Shown here: positions 18,651-56,501 of the stretch, piece by piece
Position numbering within the stretch: position 1 is the stretch's first letter
Layout: the number at the start of each line of letters is the position of its first letter
Source of the DNA: Leptolyngbya sp. PCC 6406
GTDB taxonomy: Bacteria > Cyanobacteriota > Cyanobacteriia > Phormidesmidales > Phormidesmidaceae
Length of the DNA: 64,000 bases
Direction: 5' to 3'
Assembly: GCF_000332095.2 (NCBI RefSeq)
Contig: NZ_KI913949.1
Span: 4,000,869-4,064,868 of the forward strand
Position numbers and translations under genes: made by a program
The notes under the pieces: generated by a model
What the model saw: the letters and a program-made list of their open reading frames with translations, nothing else
Databases searched by the model: none
Told to the model about the DNA's origin: nothing

Positions 18651-19931
18651 ATGCCCCTCACCCAAACCCCACCCTCAACCCATCCCCACGCCGATGTCAT
18701 CCATCGCCTAGAGGCGGGCGGTTCCATGCTGCCCGATACGCCGGAAAATCTGATGCAGATCATCGGGATCTACAAGGCTTACGCGGTACCGATGGACTTC
18801 TACTGGCGAGATTTGCTGTACATCGCCGAGCGAGTGTTTCTGAATCCCCTGCCCGCTTTCAAATACTTTCTGCCCCAGGAATATCTGGATCTGCACAACC
18901 ACTATGCGGGGGAGACGGCGGACCTGCGGATCTGGCGCGGTGAAGCCACGGCCCATCCTGAGTTACTGGAATTTATGGAGCAGGGTGAGGTCAAGCGCAA
19001 GCTCCCTAAGTTGCTCCACCACCTCTGGCACGATCGCGTCAATATGGAGTTCGCCGAAGCCTGTATGCGGGCCATGCTGTGGCACCAGGACATGGGCGGA
19101 CGGTTCAATGACTTCCTCTATACGGATGAGTACAAGGCAAACTGCGATCGCGCCATCAACGCCTACTTTAAGCGCAACCCCTTGATGCTAGGGCTGCACA
19201 AACTGTTCCCCGACATGTTCTACGAAAAATGTCGGGAACTGTCCTACTACGCCAACCTAGGACTGTTCTGGGAAGTCATGGCCCCGGTCTTTTTTGAAAT
19301 GTCCGACATCTACGACGAAGGCGGCTTCCAAGGAGTCCCCGATGCCATGAATTTCCTGGTAAATGGCATCTTCGCCGTGGCCGGAAGACCCATTTACCAC
19401 CATGTCTACATCGGCGACGAATGCTTTGAACTGATTCCCAAATCCTGTGGCTTCACCTGGCTCTACGAAGCCGCCCTACCCTACGTGGAAGCAGTGTTTT
19501 ATCGCACCGCTCCCTTCCGGGGGACAAAATCCTACAACGCCCAAGCGGGTCAAGTCCCCCAAGATCAAAAGGATTTCCACTACGGCATCCTCTATGCCGA
19601 TGTTTTCCCCGTCGGTAGCGCCGGGATTCCCCCCACCCTGCTGATGCAGGATATGCTCCACTTTTTGCCCCCCTACTTGCAGGACTACTACCAGCAACAC
19701 TGTCGCGGCGAAGACGACATGCTGATCCAATTGGGGATCACCTTCCAGCGCTCCATGTACAACGTCACCTCAGCGGTGATCCAAGCCCTACGCACCGCCC
19801 TCCTCTACCCCCTGGATGATCCCAACCCAGATCATCGCCAAGCTAACCGCCAATTCTTCGAGGCTCAAATGGATCGCTTCCTCCGCCCTGAAGCCCGCCT
19901 TCGCGACATCCAGCGCCAGGAGTATCGGTAG
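18651..19931 (+). CDS. cupA: CO2 hydration protein CupA (ChpY)
   Basis: CupA is the peripheral subunit of NDH-1MS that sits on NdhF3/NdhD3 and performs vectorial CO2-to-bicarbonate hydration. The 426-residue protein reads colinearly with the Chp family: NLMQIIGIYKAYAVPMDFYW, LPAFKYFLPQEYLDLHNHYAG, the His/Cys-rich KLLHHLWHDRVNMEFAEACM with AMLWHQDMGG expected near the metal site, and VYIGDECFELIPKSCGFTWL. The order behind ndhF3-ndhD3, with cupS further on, supports CupA rather than the constitutive CupB. The first 20 or so residues are Pro/Thr-rich and lie just after repeat DNA, so the start could be a little downstream. Confidence 0.93.
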   Translation: MPLTQTPPSTHPHADVIHRLEAGGSMLPDTPENLMQIIGIYKAYAVPMDFYWRDLLYIAERVFLNPLPAFKYFLPQEYLDLHNHYAGETADLRIWRGEATAHPELLEFMEQGEVKRKLPKLLHHLWHDRVNMEFAEACMRAMLWHQDMGGRFNDFLYTDEYKANCDRAINAYFKRNPLMLGLHKLFPDMFYEKCRELSYYANLGLFWEVMAPVFFEMSDIYDEGGFQGVPDAMNFLVNGIFAVAGRPIYHHVYIGDECFELIPKSCGFTWLYEAALPYVEAVFYRTAPFRGTKSYNAQAGQVPQDQKDFHYGILYADVFPVGSAGIPPTLLMQDMLHFLPPYLQDYYQQHCRGEDDMLIQLGITFQRSMYNVTSAVIQALRTALLYPLDDPNPDHRQANRQFFEAQMDRFLRPEARLRDIQRQEYR

Positions 19932-20026
19932 AAAAGTCGTCAAACAGGGACATACAGAGAGGGCACTGCTACATTTGTAGAGTTAAGCTTTGCTCTCTCT
20001 GTTACAGTTCATTATCCAGCAAAATA

Positions 20027-20806
20027 ATGACTTTCTTAGACTCTCCTTTGCTATTTTCTAAATTCAAATCTCATGAATTTAATGAGTTATGTGACTTGCT
20101 ATGCACAGTCTTTGAGATGTCCCGAACAGAAATAACCGAAGTTTATGATAACATTCGTTCTACATTCGATGAACCTGGCTGGCCGCCTCATCATATCAGA
20201 CGAAGTATATTCAAAAGTGGAGATGAATCTTTTCAGGAAACTTATGCAAAATCACCAGTTATAGCGGTTGACTTACCCAGCTCTTTCGAGTTAGACAATG
20301 GTAGTCAAGAGAAGCAAACAATAGTTATCATTGCTCAAGATTCCAAAAGTGATAGAAACTCACAAGAAATACCCATTGGAACTCCCTTTGGGCTACATCA
20401 TAAAGGTTCTAGGGAAGTCCTGGGCACAACAAAATTTTATTATGAGATGATTGCTGTCTTGATGCAAATGGACTACAGAGTTTACCTCACTGACATATTC
20501 AAAGTCTGGGTTTGCGATCCAGGTCGACCCTACAATCGGATTAAGCTGCCTCTGACAGATCAGAATCGGTTCTTTAAGGCTTTAGAGGCGGAGCTTCCCA
20601 TAATCAATCCATCTGTAGTTATTACTTGGGGTAGAGATGCCAGTTTCGCAATGCATAAAGTTAAATATGATATTAAGCATTTGGCCTTTCCTCATCCAGG
20701 CGGGGCAGCAGGTGGAGCATGGGCCAAGTTGCTTGGCGATTCTCCAACAAGAGTTAATAAGTTGGCTTACTGGAAGTCGGCTATTTCTCAAGCTCTTCAC
20801 CATTAG
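20027..20806 (+). CDS. uracil-DNA-glycosylase-superfamily-like protein, probable insertion
   Basis: This 259-residue protein is visibly AT-richer than its neighbours and lacks the GCGATCGC motif common around it. A strand-plus-loop IVIIAQDSKSDRNSQEIPIG, followed by GTPFGLHHKG, recalls motif 1 of UDG-fold enzymes. AFPHPGGAAGGAW near residue 225 recalls the His-Pro motif, with ITWGRDASFAMHK between them. The match is structural in flavour, and catalytic residues cannot be assigned. It separates cupA from cupS, which are normally adjacent, with short gaps (95 and 61 bp). Acquisition by transfer is inferred. Confidence 0.6.
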   Translation: MTFLDSPLLFSKFKSHEFNELCDLLCTVFEMSRTEITEVYDNIRSTFDEPGWPPHHIRRSIFKSGDESFQETYAKSPVIAVDLPSSFELDNGSQEKQTIVIIAQDSKSDRNSQEIPIGTPFGLHHKGSREVLGTTKFYYEMIAVLMQMDYRVYLTDIFKVWVCDPGRPYNRIKLPLTDQNRFFKALEAELPIINPSVVITWGRDASFAMHKVKYDIKHLAFPHPGGAAGGAWAKLLGDSPTRVNKLAYWKSAISQALHH

Positions 20807-20867
20807 TTAATAAGAATTTATTTCTCACAGTTTTTTATTCGCCAAGTTTCATAACTCCAAATCTCCC

Positions 20868-21269
20868 ATGCCTACTATTGTCGATATCGCTGTCAACACC
20901 GAAGGCTTTTCCACTCTGGTTGCTGCTGTCCAGGCCGCTGGTCTCGTAGAAGCTCTGCAAAGTCCCGGTCCCTTTACGGTCTTTGCCCCCAATGATGCCG
21001 CCTTCGCCAAATTGCCGCCGGGGACGGTGCAAACCCTGGTGCAGAATCCGCCCCAGCTAGCCCGGATCCTCAAATTTCACGTCGCCAGCGGCAAATATAC
21101 CCAAGCGGACTTGGTAGCCCTAGGCCAAGTGGAGTCCTTGGAGGGGGCAACGATTCCCATCCGCCAGGGAGATACCTTTGAGGTCAAAAATGCCACCGTC
21201 CTCGCCGCTGACATCGAAGCAGAAAACGGCATCATCCATGTCCTGGATACGGTGATATTGATGGGTTAA
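20868..21269 (+). CDS. cupS: fasciclin-domain protein CupS of NDH-1MS
   Basis: This 133-residue single fasciclin (FAS1) domain has the H1 region [20 protein letters not shown] and the H2 region [12 protein letters not shown], with no signal peptide. CupS is the small FAS1 subunit of the inducible CO2-uptake NDH-1MS complex and is encoded last in ndhF3-ndhD3-cupA-cupS. The location downstream of cupA supports this over other fasciclin proteins. The intervening UDG-like gene means cupS may need its own promoter or readthrough. Confidence 0.88.
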
Positions 21270-21314
21270 ACGAAGTCCGCGCTAGGTTACGGGACAGATT
21301 TATGCCGTCGAATA

Positions 21315-21452
21315 CTAGTACACCCAGGCTCACTATTCTGTTGCGCCAGCCCAACACTTTCCGGTCCCCTCTCCCCTTGGGAGAGGGCTAGGGTGAGGGG
21401 CCGAGGTGTGCCACTATGGAACGGTCAGGGTATTTACGCCACGAAGTACTAG
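21315..21452 (-). mobile_element. CTAG-MITE family B, copy 1
   Basis: A 138-bp element is bounded by CTAG on both sides. Its ends read CTAGTACTTCGTGGCGTAAAT and, inverted, CTAGTACACCCAGGCTCAC. Inside is a hairpin around TCTCCCCTTGGGAGAGGG. It shares the interior with the copy at 24682. The right-hand CTAG (21449-21452) is also the left boundary of the family A element that follows. Confidence 0.75.
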
Positions 21453-21579
21453 GTGCTGTGGACAATCAAAGCCAGATTACTTGTTATGGGACGGTTACAC
21501 CCCCTATCTTGATGCCGTAGTGCGGGCGTGGTCATGCTTACCCCGCCAGAGTTCCTTGTTAATTGTCCACACGCCCTAG
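21449..21579 (+). mobile_element. CTAG-MITE family A, copy 2, at the kaiC stop
   Basis: 131 bp, from CTAGGTGCTGTGGACAATC to AATTGTCCACACGCCCTAG. The right-end CTAG at 21576-21579 contains the kaiC TAG stop (21576-21578 on the minus strand), so the element abuts kaiC without changing its last sense codon. Confidence 0.85.
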
Positions 21580-23138
21580 AGGCGGGAATCCTCATTGCTC
21601 TGAACACCCTGGACAATCCGCGATAGCTCACTCTTCTCATCCACCGAGGTCCGGGTGGGGGAGCCGCTAATGATGCGTTCCAAGTTGCGGAAGGAACTGC
21701 GAATATCAGGCCCATCACCTGTGATGGTGTATTCGCGAATGCCCTTGTCGTGCCAAGAGCCCCGCATCTTAAAGACATTGATAGCACGGGACATCTCCCC
21801 CCGCACCTCCACATACTGGAGCATCAAAATAGTGTCCGTAATGGTGGAAATATGGGATTCCGTGATGGAATGGAGCCCCATGAACTGCTCCGTTGTGTTG
21901 GTGAAAAACCCCGTGATTTCCTCCTGTTTCGCATAGCCCGTCACCCCAATCACAAACTGGCGGAAAGAGGTATTGCTCACCCCCCGATCTAGAGCAGAGA
22001 GGGAATCAATGGCAATCCGAGCAGGCTTGAACTGGGAAATTTCTGACTTAATAATTTGCAGATGATCCTCCAAACCCGCCGACTCTGGATAGGCACAGAG
22101 AATCTTCAAGAGTCCCCTCTCCTCTAAATCCTCAAAGTCAATCCCCCAAGACGTAGCATTTCGCAGCAGTTGTGCCCGAGACTCCTCATAGGCAAACAGC
22201 ATCACCCGTTCCCCATTGGCGCAGCCATTTTCCAGAAACTTGCTCACCAGCAGGGTTTTGCCCGTTCCTGTTGCCCCGGTGGCCAAGATAATAGAGTCGC
22301 GAAAGAAACCGCCCCCGCACATCTCGTCGAGGGTCTTTACCCCCGAAGACACTCGTACATTGGAGGATCTCTGGGTGAGGCGCATGGCACCAAGGGGGAA
22401 GATATTGATACCTTCGTTAGTGATGGTGAAGGGATATTCTCCCTTCATGTGGGTGGTGCCCCGCAGTTTGAGGATTTCCACCGTGCGGCGGCGACGCTCC
22501 CCCTCTAGGGCATTGCGTAGGATGACTACATTGTCCGAAACAAATTCCTCTACCCCGTAGCGAGCTACTGGACCGTATTCGTCTACACGCTCCGTAGTCA
22601 TTAGGGTCGTGACCTTCATTAGCTTCAGGCGAGCTGCTAGACGAAAGATCTCTCGCCGCACCACGGTCGCCGCATCATACTGCTGAAATACCGCCGTCAC
22701 AGAGTCAATAGACACCCGCTGGGCTTTATATTTGCGAATAGCGTATTGGATCCGTTCGATCAGGGCGGATAGATCGAAGTTTCCCACTACATCCTGCCCC
22801 TCTGGGTCTGGGGAGGCGTCAAGGATAAAAAGTTTGCCCTCGTCCATTAGCTTTTGTAAGTCCCAGCCAAAGCTGAAGGCGTTTTTGATAATGTCTTCGG
22901 GGGATTCCTCAAAGGTGACTAAGATTCCTGGTTCATCAAAGTGAACAATGCCGTGATACAGAAACTGAACCCCCAGCAGCGTTTTACCCGTTCCTGAGGT
23001 GCCGCTCACCAGGGTGGTGCGGCCAATGGGGAGCCCCCCATGACTAATATCGTCGAACCCCTCGATCAGGGTGCGGATTTTAGTCACGCCCGTGGGGGCT
23101 AGGGGGCTAGAGGAGTCATTTAAAGCTACTTGAGTCAT
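21576..23138 (-). CDS. kaiC: circadian clock protein KaiC
   Basis: KaiC is the hexameric autokinase/ATPase core of the cyanobacterial clock. The 520 residues hold two RecA-like domains. CI has Walker A GTSGTGKTLL and catalytic Glu pair TFEESPED. CII has Walker A GATGTGKTLL, Glu pair AYEESRAQ and the phosphorylation site Ser-Thr in ESHISTITDT. The C-terminal A-loop/tail region SGSPTRTSVDEKSELSRIV, which KaiA binds, is intact, and the final residues NEDSRL precede a TAG stop that lies within a mobile-element boundary. The start at 23138 (MTQVALNDSSSPLAPTGVTK) fits the family. kaiB lies 173 bp upstream on the same strand. Confidence 0.98.
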   Translation of the reverse strand: MTQVALNDSSSPLAPTGVTKIRTLIEGFDDISHGGLPIGRTTLVSGTSGTGKTLLGVQFLYHGIVHFDEPGILVTFEESPEDIIKNAFSFGWDLQKLMDEGKLFILDASPDPEGQDVVGNFDLSALIERIQYAIRKYKAQRVSIDSVTAVFQQYDAATVVRREIFRLAARLKLMKVTTLMTTERVDEYGPVARYGVEEFVSDNVVILRNALEGERRRRTVEILKLRGTTHMKGEYPFTITNEGINIFPLGAMRLTQRSSNVRVSSGVKTLDEMCGGGFFRDSIILATGATGTGKTLLVSKFLENGCANGERVMLFAYEESRAQLLRNATSWGIDFEDLEERGLLKILCAYPESAGLEDHLQIIKSEISQFKPARIAIDSLSALDRGVSNTSFRQFVIGVTGYAKQEEITGFFTNTTEQFMGLHSITESHISTITDTILMLQYVEVRGEMSRAINVFKMRGSWHDKGIREYTITGDGPDIRSSFRNLERIISGSPTRTSVDEKSELSRIVQGVQSNEDSRL

Positions 23139-23190
23139 GGAAACTAAAAACAGGGATTATTAATCGTCTTGAAACTTGGACTGGGTCACC

Positions 23191-23273
23191 CTAGGGCGTA
23201 TGGACAATTGACGGGGAAACCCCTGCGGTTAGGTCTGACCATGCCCGCCCTACTACATCAAGCTAGGGGCTGT
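23191..23273 (-). mobile_element. CTAG-MITE family A, truncated copy between kaiB and kaiC
   Basis: The segment starts CTAGGGCGTATGGACAATT and continues through CCATGCCCGCCCTAC to AAGCTAGGGGCTGT, then loses similarity. The other half of the element is missing. It occupies most of the kaiB-kaiC gap, where a kaiBC transcript must pass or a kaiC promoter could lie. Confidence 0.7.
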
Positions 23274-23311
23274 CTGTGGGGGCTCCGTCTGAGTGGAAGG
23301 TGGGAGGAGAA

Positions 23312-23620
23312 TTATGACTCATCTTCCCGCAGTTCTTCATAGAGTAAATCCAGGCCAATCAGGACTCGTTCGCGATCGGACAAATCCCCAATGATTTTAC
23401 GGACTGGCGGCGGCAAAATCTTCGCTAAGGTCGGAGTCGCCAAAATTTTATCCTCCTCCGCAAGCTGAGGGTTTTTCAGAACGTCGATGACCTTCAATGC
23501 GTATACTCCTTGAAATTCCTGCTCTAGGATTTGGTTCAGGGTTTTCAAGGCCCGTACCGAGTTGGGGGTATTGCCCGCGACGTAGAGCTTGAGGATGTAG
23601 GTCTTTTTCAAAGCACTCAT
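23312..23620 (-). CDS. kaiB: circadian clock protein KaiB
   Basis: KaiB is the fold-switching protein that binds KaiC CI and sequesters KaiA. From the ATG at 23620 it has 102 residues, beginning [20 protein letters not shown], with the family-typical [40 protein letters not shown] and an acidic C-terminus (YEELREDES). A TTG three codons upstream would extend the frame, but the ATG matches known KaiB N-termini. It lies 69 bp from the kaiA stop, so kaiA-kaiB are probably cotranscribed. Confidence 0.97.
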
Positions 23621-23689
23621 GGCAGTCAATCATGGGAACGGGAGCGAGAATAGCGTAGCAGTTTACCAGGGGTGAACAGGGTTATGGGT

Positions 23690-24586
23690 TCACTTCTCGC
23701 GAGGAATTGAGCGGCGATACATCTCACACAGGTGGGCGATGATATCGATGAGGGTCAGACGATAGTCCAGCAGAATCTCTTCGCTACGCCCTTCTAGCTT
23801 CAGTTGCTTGGAAAACTGATCCATCAAGTCCATGTGGACCTCGACAATTTGGGAGACGGATATGTCGGCAAAGAAGGCGATGTTGACAAGGTCATCGATC
23901 TTCTGGTTCAAGCCCTCCTGATCGGAAAAGTAGGTGAGGATAATGGCCCGGTACTCATTCTTGAGTGTGGTGACCAGTTCAGCTCGGTCTGTTGGGTTGA
24001 GGTTCCGCAGAAAGTTCTGGGGATTGCGCTTGTAGTAAACCCCCAGATAGCCCAAGCGTTCTCGGAGCTTTTCTGAAAGGCGCTGCTGTTGCAGGCTGAG
24101 GAGAAAGTGGCGGGTATCTGCGATGGGGGGAGGGGGGAGGTTGCTAATGTCTTGGTGATGGGAAAGTCGCAGAAACTCATCGATAGATTGGTGAATGTAC
24201 TGATCTAGTAGGGAGAGTTCCCCCTGGGGTAAACACGCGATCGCACGGTGGTAGCTAATGCCTACTTGGCACCCCGGTGGAATGGGCGGGTTCGTACTGT
24301 CGGGGGCCAACTGACCTGCTGGGATTGGTGATCCTGTAGGGGCCAAGATTACGGTAGGTAATAGGATCTCGCGTCCCAGAAGCTGGATCACCAGGGACTG
24401 AAGCTCGTCATAGCTCTCTAGAAGTAGACAATCAACCCGATGCCGATTTTCTCCGATCCATTGGAGGAAGTTGTCGATGGTGTTGTCGTGATGAATGGCG
24501 TACTCGGGCTCACAGAGAAGGGTCCCGAGTTGCTGAGCGAGCTCAGGGGAGAAAATCAGGCTGCCAATTAACAGTTGTGAATGCAA
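23690..24586 (-). CDS. kaiA: circadian clock protein KaiA
   Basis: KaiA stimulates KaiC autophosphorylation. The C-terminal four-helix domain is very well conserved (QRLSEKLRERLGYLGVYYKR, MDLMDQFSKQLKLEGRSEEI, YRLTLIDIIAHLCEMYRRSI), and the N-terminal pseudo-receiver is divergent. I choose the TTG start at 24586: it has CAAGG four bases upstream and gives MHSQLLIGSLIFS, which aligns with the known KaiA N-terminus MLSQIAI. The protein is then 298 residues. A longer frame starts at 24643, but that start lies inside a mobile element. A composite mobile element (24627-24899) occupies the upstream region. Confidence 0.95.
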   Translation of the reverse strand: MHSQLLIGSLIFSPELAQQLGTLLCEPEYAIHHDNTIDNFLQWIGENRHRVDCLLLESYDELQSLVIQLLGREILLPTVILAPTGSPIPAGQLAPDSTNPPIPPGCQVGISYHRAIACLPQGELSLLDQYIHQSIDEFLRLSHHQDISNLPPPPIADTRHFLLSLQQQRLSEKLRERLGYLGVYYKRNPQNFLRNLNPTDRAELVTTLKNEYRAIILTYFSDQEGLNQKIDDLVNIAFFADISVSQIVEVHMDLMDQFSKQLKLEGRSEEILLDYRLTLIDIIAHLCEMYRRSIPREK

Positions 24587-55797: not shown

Positions 55798-55964
55798 TGC
55801 TTGTCACCGCCTGAATTTTCCTTGTCAGCCTATCGGAAAAAGCCAGCGGTGGTAGATAACCTCGAACTCAACATCAATGGCCCTCAACCGTCCGCTGCAT
55901 TGGAATTATGGGGAGACCGTTTTAGCTGTGAAGAAGTGCTTCGTAACGATCGCGATCGCCTCAT

Positions 55965-56501
55965 CTATGAAACGCATTTAAGAGCCAGTAGTTCGCTTAA
56001 CTTATTCTTTAAGTCTGGCGATACCATCAGTGGCTTATAAACTTCGCCTTCATAGGGACACCAAACGTAGCCGGTACTGAAAGGTTGAAATAAAGTCGAG
56101 GCTCCGAGCGATTGCCAAACTGCCTCAGCCAAGACTAAACCTGGAAACCTGGGAACGGTTCCTTCCGAGATCAACTCACTATAGGTTCTAAATTCATCAA
56201 CTTCCACGCCAACCAAGGCATACCGAAAGGGGGGAGCAGACTGCAACTGCTGATAGAGTTCAATACCTAACTCCGTCATCTGGTAAGCAATGTCAGAACC
56301 CTCAATTCCCGCTTCACTGATGCCACTGGGACAAACCTGACACCACCAGTTCCCCTCGATATCCTGAAAAATTGCTGTATGGCATTGGGATGCATTACCG
56401 TTTGAAAAAAGATAGGAAAGACCGTCGAAATACTGGGCAAACTGCTCAGCAGCAACCTGTTTTGCCCCACATTCAGCCGACAAACTAAATGCCCACGTCA
56501 T
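55965..56501 (-). CDS. hypothetical protein (178 aa)
   Basis: A soluble-looking protein starting MTWAFSLSAECGAKQVAAEQ, with Trp/Cys-rich DIEGNWWCQVCPSG and GYVWCPYEGEVYK patches. No family is recognised. It is a little AT-richer than neighbours. The short remnant-like frame at 56518 lies directly upstream on the same strand, so the two may have been one locus, for instance a toxin and its immunity partner. That is speculation. Confidence 0.6.
   Translation of the reverse strand: MTWAFSLSAECGAKQVAAEQFAQYFDGLSYLFSNGNASQCHTAIFQDIEGNWWCQVCPSGISEAGIEGSDIAYQMTELGIELYQQLQSAPPFRYALVGVEVDEFRTYSELISEGTVPRFPGLVLAEAVWQSLGASTLFQPFSTGYVWCPYEGEVYKPLMVSPDLKNKLSELLALKCVS

Follow-up and report, generated by a model that had tools for sequence, protein, structure and literature searches.

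What kind of gene separates cupA from cupS in the carbon-uptake operon of Leptolyngbya sp. PCC 6406, and how did it get there? The window, by which we mean the whole stretch of 64,000 nucleotides analysed, contains at exactly 20027–20806 (+) an open reading frame of 259 amino acids running from ATG to TAG, which model, profile and motifs mark as a UDG-superfamily DNA-glycosylase-like gene. It is flanked upstream by cupA (ChpXY; 18651–19931, +; TIGR01964, 765 bits) and downstream by cupS (20868–21269, +), recognized by a match to the fasciclin domain. Farther upstream, ndhF3 (TIGR01960, NF005633) and ndhD3 (PRK07363) were identified by profile matches.

A foreign insert between cupA and cupS

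The first-pass annotation had described the gene as AT-rich, and its base composition bears this out. With a GC content of 0.409, it is the lowest among the 39 non-overlapping window ORFs of at least 150 aa (other long ORFs, 0.572 ± 0.030; z −5.5), and its GC3 of 0.355 departs similarly from that of the other long ORFs (z −5.2). No transposase was found in the insert, as already remarked in that annotation. The HIP1 motif, whose absence had been read as a further sign of foreign DNA, is truly missing from the gene, but we rejected this mark. At 68 sites per 64 kb, 0.83 sites are expected in 780 bp and the chance of finding none is 0.44; moreover, the HIP1-free stretch extends from 19152 to 24236 and includes cupS. 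Because of both facts, the absence carries no weight.

Comparison with the cup loci of relatives was more informative. The glycosylase gene occurs in none of 30 other cup loci, namely 29 loci of relatives, among which the same-genus locus G386 is counted, and the additional same-genus locus G387. Conservation of homologues in NDH-1MS operons of many cyanobacteria, an outcome that would have spoken against the idea of cargo, was thus sought and not found. In 26 of the 29 relatives' loci cupS lies 46–395 bp past cupA; in the other three it was not found in the available flank (128 bp in L041, 1.5 kb in L046 and L051). The assumption that ndhF3-ndhD3-cupA-cupS are normally contiguous therefore holds as far as spacing is concerned, but the gap between the last two genes is not always empty. 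A small conserved ORF of about 50–60 aa (MRRLLDRLDPFFAASAIAIAGLT-like) follows cupA in eight of the 29 loci, one of them same-genus (L024, L025, L026, L033, L034, L037, L040, L041). The window lacks it and has the glycosylase gene at that place.

In both same-genus loci cupA and cupS stand without the insert, separated by about 80 bp in G387 and 176 bp in G386. DNA similarity of the window to these loci ends at 19930 and resumes at 20865; the inserted segment accordingly spans 19931–20864 (+), and nothing of it is common to either locus. From the deviant composition, these empty sites and the break in similarity it follows that the glycosylase gene is a foreign insert, recent on the scale of the genus.

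Between cupA and the glycosylase gene lies a stem-loop (19954–20002, +) with 17-nt arms of 82% complementarity, and the region 19932–20026 has a folding energy of −26.7 kcal/mol (z −3.5). Inverted repeats directly after cupA were seen by eye in several relatives as well. The stem-loop was rejected as an integron attC site by the attC model introduced below, and as a terminator, too, it was dismissed, no terminator-like site being found in 19850–20950 with the stem-loop region included. In the same interval, three sigma-70-like promoter matches were found where 1.8 are expected; a single weak match, overlapping the start codon, was considered as the gene's own promoter and given no weight. Since neither a terminator nor a convincing promoter was found in the insert, and since cupS is reported to be cotranscribed with cupA in Synechocystis (PMC11456788), it is plausible that transcripts of the cup operon run on into the insert.

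Predicted fold and putative active site

A UDG-like fold had been proposed from the sequence, and the structure prediction agrees with it. The AF2 model, for which 25 family rows served as alignment, reached a pLDDT of 92.7 and a pTM of 0.91. Among the best 50 structures that VIA-align listed, ranks 1 to 47 are taken by UDG-superfamily chains (Z 11.6 to 8.6), and an unrelated entry first appears at Z 8.4; at the top stands a Thermotoga family 4 enzyme (Z 11.6, rmsd 3.4, 164 residues aligned), and SMUG1 reaches Z 11.5 (rmsd 3.5–3.7, 179–187 aligned). All 50 Foldseek matches listed at E≤0.001 belong to the same superfamily. Profile searches gave a fainter signal: PF03167 matches 21 of the 25 family rows at E≤1 (best 3.9e-7), the window sequence alone scoring 15.9 bits, below the cut-off of 24.3, and TIGR00628 (ung) matches six of the 25 (best 1.7e-4). 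Sequence searches of the PDB returned no significant match; the weak matches obtained with the 25-row alignment were UDGs in seven cases out of seven (Ung chains), aligned at GQD and WG...HPS. Judged by the model, the protein belongs to the UDG superfamily and is predicted to adopt its alpha/beta fold. It falls short of the family 4 UDG profile (13.9 versus 125.3 bits).

Four places of the putative active site could be located. Codons Q104-D105 (20336–20341, +) are invariant in 25 of 25 family rows and belong to motif A, (G/A)QD[SP], which was aligned with GQDP of Ung. F121 (20387–20389, +) corresponds in the alignment to the Phe on which family 4 enzymes stack the base; all 20 rows used have F or Y there, and all 25 family-4 sequences have F. 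D156 (20492–20494, +) stands, by alignment, in place of the uracil-reading Asn; every one of the 25 rows has Asp here, and all 25 cyanobacterial family-4 UDGs have Asn. Codons H223-P224 of motif B (20693–20698, +) were aligned with the family 4 HP in two of three MAFFT modes. When the 20 full-length sequences of the 25 rows were combined in an alignment with family-4 UDGs of relatives (25 sequences), the register of D156 was the same in all three modes, and hhalign gave it as well, though in a weak two-profile match (E 0.058); K159 stands opposite a Lys present in 25 of 25 family-4 UDGs (MAFFT). H223 is nearly invariant among the 25 family rows, and no invariant Cys is found among them. The window copy has HPGG and AQD, most family members HPSG and GQD. 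At the position of Ung Tyr66, a residue which blocks C5 groups in Ung, most family members have Lys.

The uracil-reading Asn of E. coli UDG is N123, and the N123D variant is reported to excise cytosine and to be cytotoxic in E. coli (PMC3989344). In Brig1, E147 replaces Asn82 of S. tokodaii UDG and matters for immunity (PMC11078745); in Brig3, which excises 5hmC, D127 is described as essential for immunity (PMC13160076), and we take it as the equivalent of the Brig1 E147 position. On this Glu/Asp pattern, D156 would be the acidic base reader of the protein. Asp in place of Asn, the parallels with N123D and the Brig enzymes, and Lys in place of Tyr66 together point to a substrate of cytosine type, probably C5-modified. 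Asp at this position is no proof of cytosine, because residual uracil activity is retained according to the accounts of N123D UDG (PMC3989344) and Brig3 (PMC13160076), and because Brig2 is said to counter phages with modified thymine (PMC13160076).

As the closest folds listed for it are all of repair type (SMUG1, family 4, UdgX) and motif A is Ung-like, the protein might instead be an accessory repair glycosylase, acting on uracil or on other deaminated or damaged bases and spread in cassettes by the benefit of lower mutation or of protection from oxidative stress. We consider this unlikely, given an invariant Asp where the uracil-reading Asn would be expected and a patchy presence (5/386 genomes). 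A canonical family-4 UDG, moreover, is already encoded in the same genome, as in each of the 24 good-quality genomes searched; because the own genome has this enzyme, the gene between cupA and cupS is accessory.

Scattered relatives and integron cassettes

The glycosylase gene is single-copy in its own genome, and its relatives are scattered. Counting the window's genome wherever that genome was searched, members were found in five of 386 genomes of a phylum sample by protein search and in six of 386 by profile, in 14 of 388 genomes of the order of G338, and in five of 63 genomes of the window's own family. A scan of an 84,980-species collection yielded 13 loci, all cyanobacterial by title. 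Single-sequence scans of genome contigs and viral contigs, limited by their peptide patterns, gave no close relatives, and none came from profile scans of viral contigs or from phages and plasmids, searched with two queries each, within the limits of the collections used.

Neighbouring genes are mostly unrelated between places and include chaperone genes, an rlmL-like gene, purT with a D-Ala-D-Ala carboxypeptidase, ABC transporters and toxin-antitoxin genes (names partly given by eye). Surroundings are shared in a few close pairs (L013/L016, L014/L021), and no flanks conserved across all family loci were seen by eye. Family genes are often AT-richer than their surroundings. Among 126 neighbour ORFs at 23 loci, counted without a random-gene control, there are Uma2, HNH and toxin-antitoxin genes and some PADLOC candidate models, with no steady partner and no clear defence-island pattern; for the glycosylase gene itself, PADLOC has no model. 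On the side of defence, the earlier suggestion of a defence-related cargo gene hence finds no clear backing in PADLOC or in the neighbours, whereas its other half, cargo, is supported by relatives residing in integron cassettes.

Integron attC sites are characterized by R and L boxes and extrahelical bases. A unit of about 1.98 kb, composed of the glycosylase gene, a 101-aa ORF, an antitoxin-like ORF and a PIN/VapC toxin, is 88–95% identical among L012, L015, L020 and L121, with identical ends and unrelated flanks. In L020 and L121 the bottom strand of its right end folds as attC, with GCCTAAC pairing to GTTAGGC and, past a spacer that stays unpaired, another stem carrying an extrahelical base; the end is degenerate in L015, and in L012 the unit is cut by the end of the contig. 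The L020 unit (filamentous cyanobacterium CCP2), whose glycosylase gene is frameshifted, adjoins an integron integrase gene whose product scores 484.7 bits (cut-off 265). In G403 and G502, attC lies directly 5' of the glycosylase gene with a G/TTAGGC junction, and G/TTRRRY junctions were read in L012, L015, L020, L121, G403 and L101. Integron integrase above the TIGR02249 cut-off is present in six of 20 genomes tested. A unit that recurs at unrelated sites with its ends unchanged, its attC and the adjoining integrase identify the gene as integron-cassette cargo, and in this form the family would travel between cyanobacterial genomes. Cyanobacterial integrons and attC sites have been described already (PMC8352920, PMC2426708).

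The strict attC scanner was weak when used alone. Its first scan gave two distinct DNA stretches against two shuffle hits (each stretch had been counted on both strands, and one stretch entered as two loci), its second scan 14 hits against 3.5 in shuffles. The attC model comprises nine scanner hits, picked by eye for length (86–89) and L-box sequence, and the L121 end; the hits L138 11166, L139 13997, L142 9267, L144 17457, L146 372 and 8655 and both L147 hits were left out, likewise the degenerate L015 end. The consensus of these 10 sites has 19 pairs, 11 of them with both-sided pair-keeping changes. Of 32 matches at E≤1e-5, the 10 model sites are circular and 22 lie outside the model, and the control, 54 loci of 202,627 bases in all, gave no match. 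At eight of 30 family places an attC match lies no more than about 1.1 kb from the gene (L020, L121, L015, L012, G403, L095, L101, L124); 22 have none within this distance. The proposed check of homologues and their neighbours thus returned scattered cyanobacterial relatives at mostly unrelated sites, with attC near the gene at these eight places. In the family tree, whose forks near the window row lack resolution, the rows from cassettes occupy two parts or more. In the genome of L012 (G742, Leptolyngbyaceae SM1_4_3), at least 149 sequences match attC at E≤0.01, which makes for a very large set of cassettes.

For the window copy, no attC was found in 19700–21300 with filters off (best 6.1 bits), and its 5' flank has no repeats or second copies of note in the own genome. 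In this genome 30 sequences match attC at E≤0.01, some isolated and some in small groups, and integron integrase is present as fragments only; arrays without integrase lie, for example, at C1:3181417, 2983571–2988900, 516756–518017 and 3882726–3885781. It is possible that the window copy arrived as a cassette whose attC has since been lost. Elsewhere in the window, an attC-like site (55828–55913, −; 35.2 bits, E 1.1e-6) lies 51 bp behind a 178-aa ORF (55965–56501, −) that has no Pfam match and the second lowest GC of the 39 (0.47), and we read 55828–56501 (−) as an integron-cassette remnant. On C1 of the same genome, L147:3964–5587 carries a DUF6119 protein (PF19614, 132 bits) followed by a possible attC found by the scanner (model 20.5 bits, E 0.073).

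At L124:4178–6252 in G401, a glycosylase gene with an internal deletion is accompanied by a BrnT/BrnA-like pair and an attC-like site; an XisH/XisI-like pair with attC comes next (all names by eye). The attC-like sites of G401 score 23.6 bits (E 0.011) and 36.8 bits. Cassettes commonly carry toxin-antitoxin pairs anyway, and many copies of the glycosylase gene, the window's too, have no such pair. Both points weigh against a protein of mobile DNA acting in addiction or conflict, one that would hit host or rival DNA, be kept together with toxin-antitoxin pairs and not be directed at phages. We hold this for the least probable of the explanations weighed here, even with the VapBC-like partners in cassettes, the BrnT/BrnA-like pair and the reported cytotoxicity of N123D UDG in E. 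coli (PMC3989344) in its favour.

Copies are broken at eight of the 30 family places (L018, L020, L021, L022, L086, L094, L095, L124), and the G403 copy is divided between two contigs. Such breakage would fit a neutral passenger, a gene that was formerly mobile and now degenerates at its site, with no function under selection in the window species. The window copy, however, is open over its full length and keeps nearly all motifs, and the family appears to be under purifying selection, with dN/dS of 0.11–0.19 in five of seven pairs of relatives (the other two pairs are saturated), which leaves neutral decay quite improbable.

Probable role and comparison with known systems

We assign a probability of about one half to the following explanation: the gene encodes an accessory UDG-superfamily DNA glycosylase, cassette cargo in cyanobacteria, which was inserted between cupA and cupS and whose substrate is most probably C5-modified cytosine of phage DNA. 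The gene would have entered after the window's species split from the two sampled congeners. Its product would flip the base out of DNA and stack it on F/Y121, and Asp156 would read the Watson-Crick face of the base, as a cytosine-type reader unlike the uracil-reading Asn. The N-glycosidic bond would be cleaved with help of Asp105 from the Ung-like GQD motif and of His223, and the abasic sites left behind would block replication of incoming DNA. C5-modified cytosine in phage DNA would be the likeliest substrate, as for Brig1 and Brig3. Active-site likeness to these two enzymes, together with mobility in company of toxin-antitoxin genes, suggests a role in defence.

A tentative extension of this explanation concerns regulation. 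A family of natural cytosine-class DNA glycosylases, in which the Asp base reader is joined to a catalytic motif of Ung type and which is spread in integron cassettes with toxin-antitoxin genes, might here, inside the presumably low-CO2-induced NDH-1MS operon, raise defence against modified-cytosine phages when inorganic carbon is scarce.

Among the papers listed on DNA glycosylases and integron cassettes, on integrons and phage defence and on cyanobacterial integrons, none deals with this gene by title and abstract. New is the glycosylase gene as integron-cassette cargo; cyanobacterial integrons with their attC sites and the Brig glycosylases are already known. If our explanation is true, Brig-type base-excision defence has a separate cyanobacterial branch that uses another catalytic motif and counts integrons among its vehicles of spread. 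A natural enzyme with the Asp of the laboratory cytosine-glycosylase UDG would offer a ready test of how host DNA is spared, as well as a possible source of base-editing parts, and the window case lets one ask whether a carbon-uptake operon lends its regulation to an incoming gene.

Among known systems, family 1 Ung is similar in that its GQD (motif A) and its HPS (motif B) can be aligned with those found here. Motif B of Ung is HPSPLS, and of the marks of this family (GQDPYH, Asn123 and HPSPLS) GQD is kept. The present family differs in having Asp at the base-reading Asn123 and mostly Lys at Tyr66, as these residues are described for Ung (PMC3989344). The nearest folds are family 4 UDG (TIGR00758), UdgX and SMUG1 (family 3), with Z of 10–11.6. 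The motifs G-x-P-F, V-Y-I-x-N/D-x-x-K and HP align with those of family 4, but GQD stands for GEGPG or GE(A/G)PG, Asp stands for Asn and there is no invariant Fe-S cluster Cys, so that the uracil-reading Asn, the GE(A/G)PG motif and the Fe-S cysteines of family 4 are all missing. With cyanobacterial integron cassettes, the relatives share the attC fold with R and L boxes and extrahelical bases, the G/TTRRRY junctions and a neighbouring intI, whereas the window copy is without recognisable attC.

Closest in the proposed action are Brig1 and Brig3, single-gene glycosylases of the UDG superfamily. By their published descriptions (PMC11078745, PMC13160076), they have an acidic residue at the Asn position of uracil enzymes (E147 and D127, respectively; here D156) and a stacking aromatic residue (Y121 and W100; here F/Y121). 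In Brig3, N50-P51-S52 line the spot of motif A (PMC13160076), in contrast to the Ung-like GQD[SP] here, and, compared by description, the Brig genes lie in defence islands, the present family in integron cassettes. Cyanobacterial sequences are said to figure in the Brig1 tree (PMC11078745), and the family described here may be among them.
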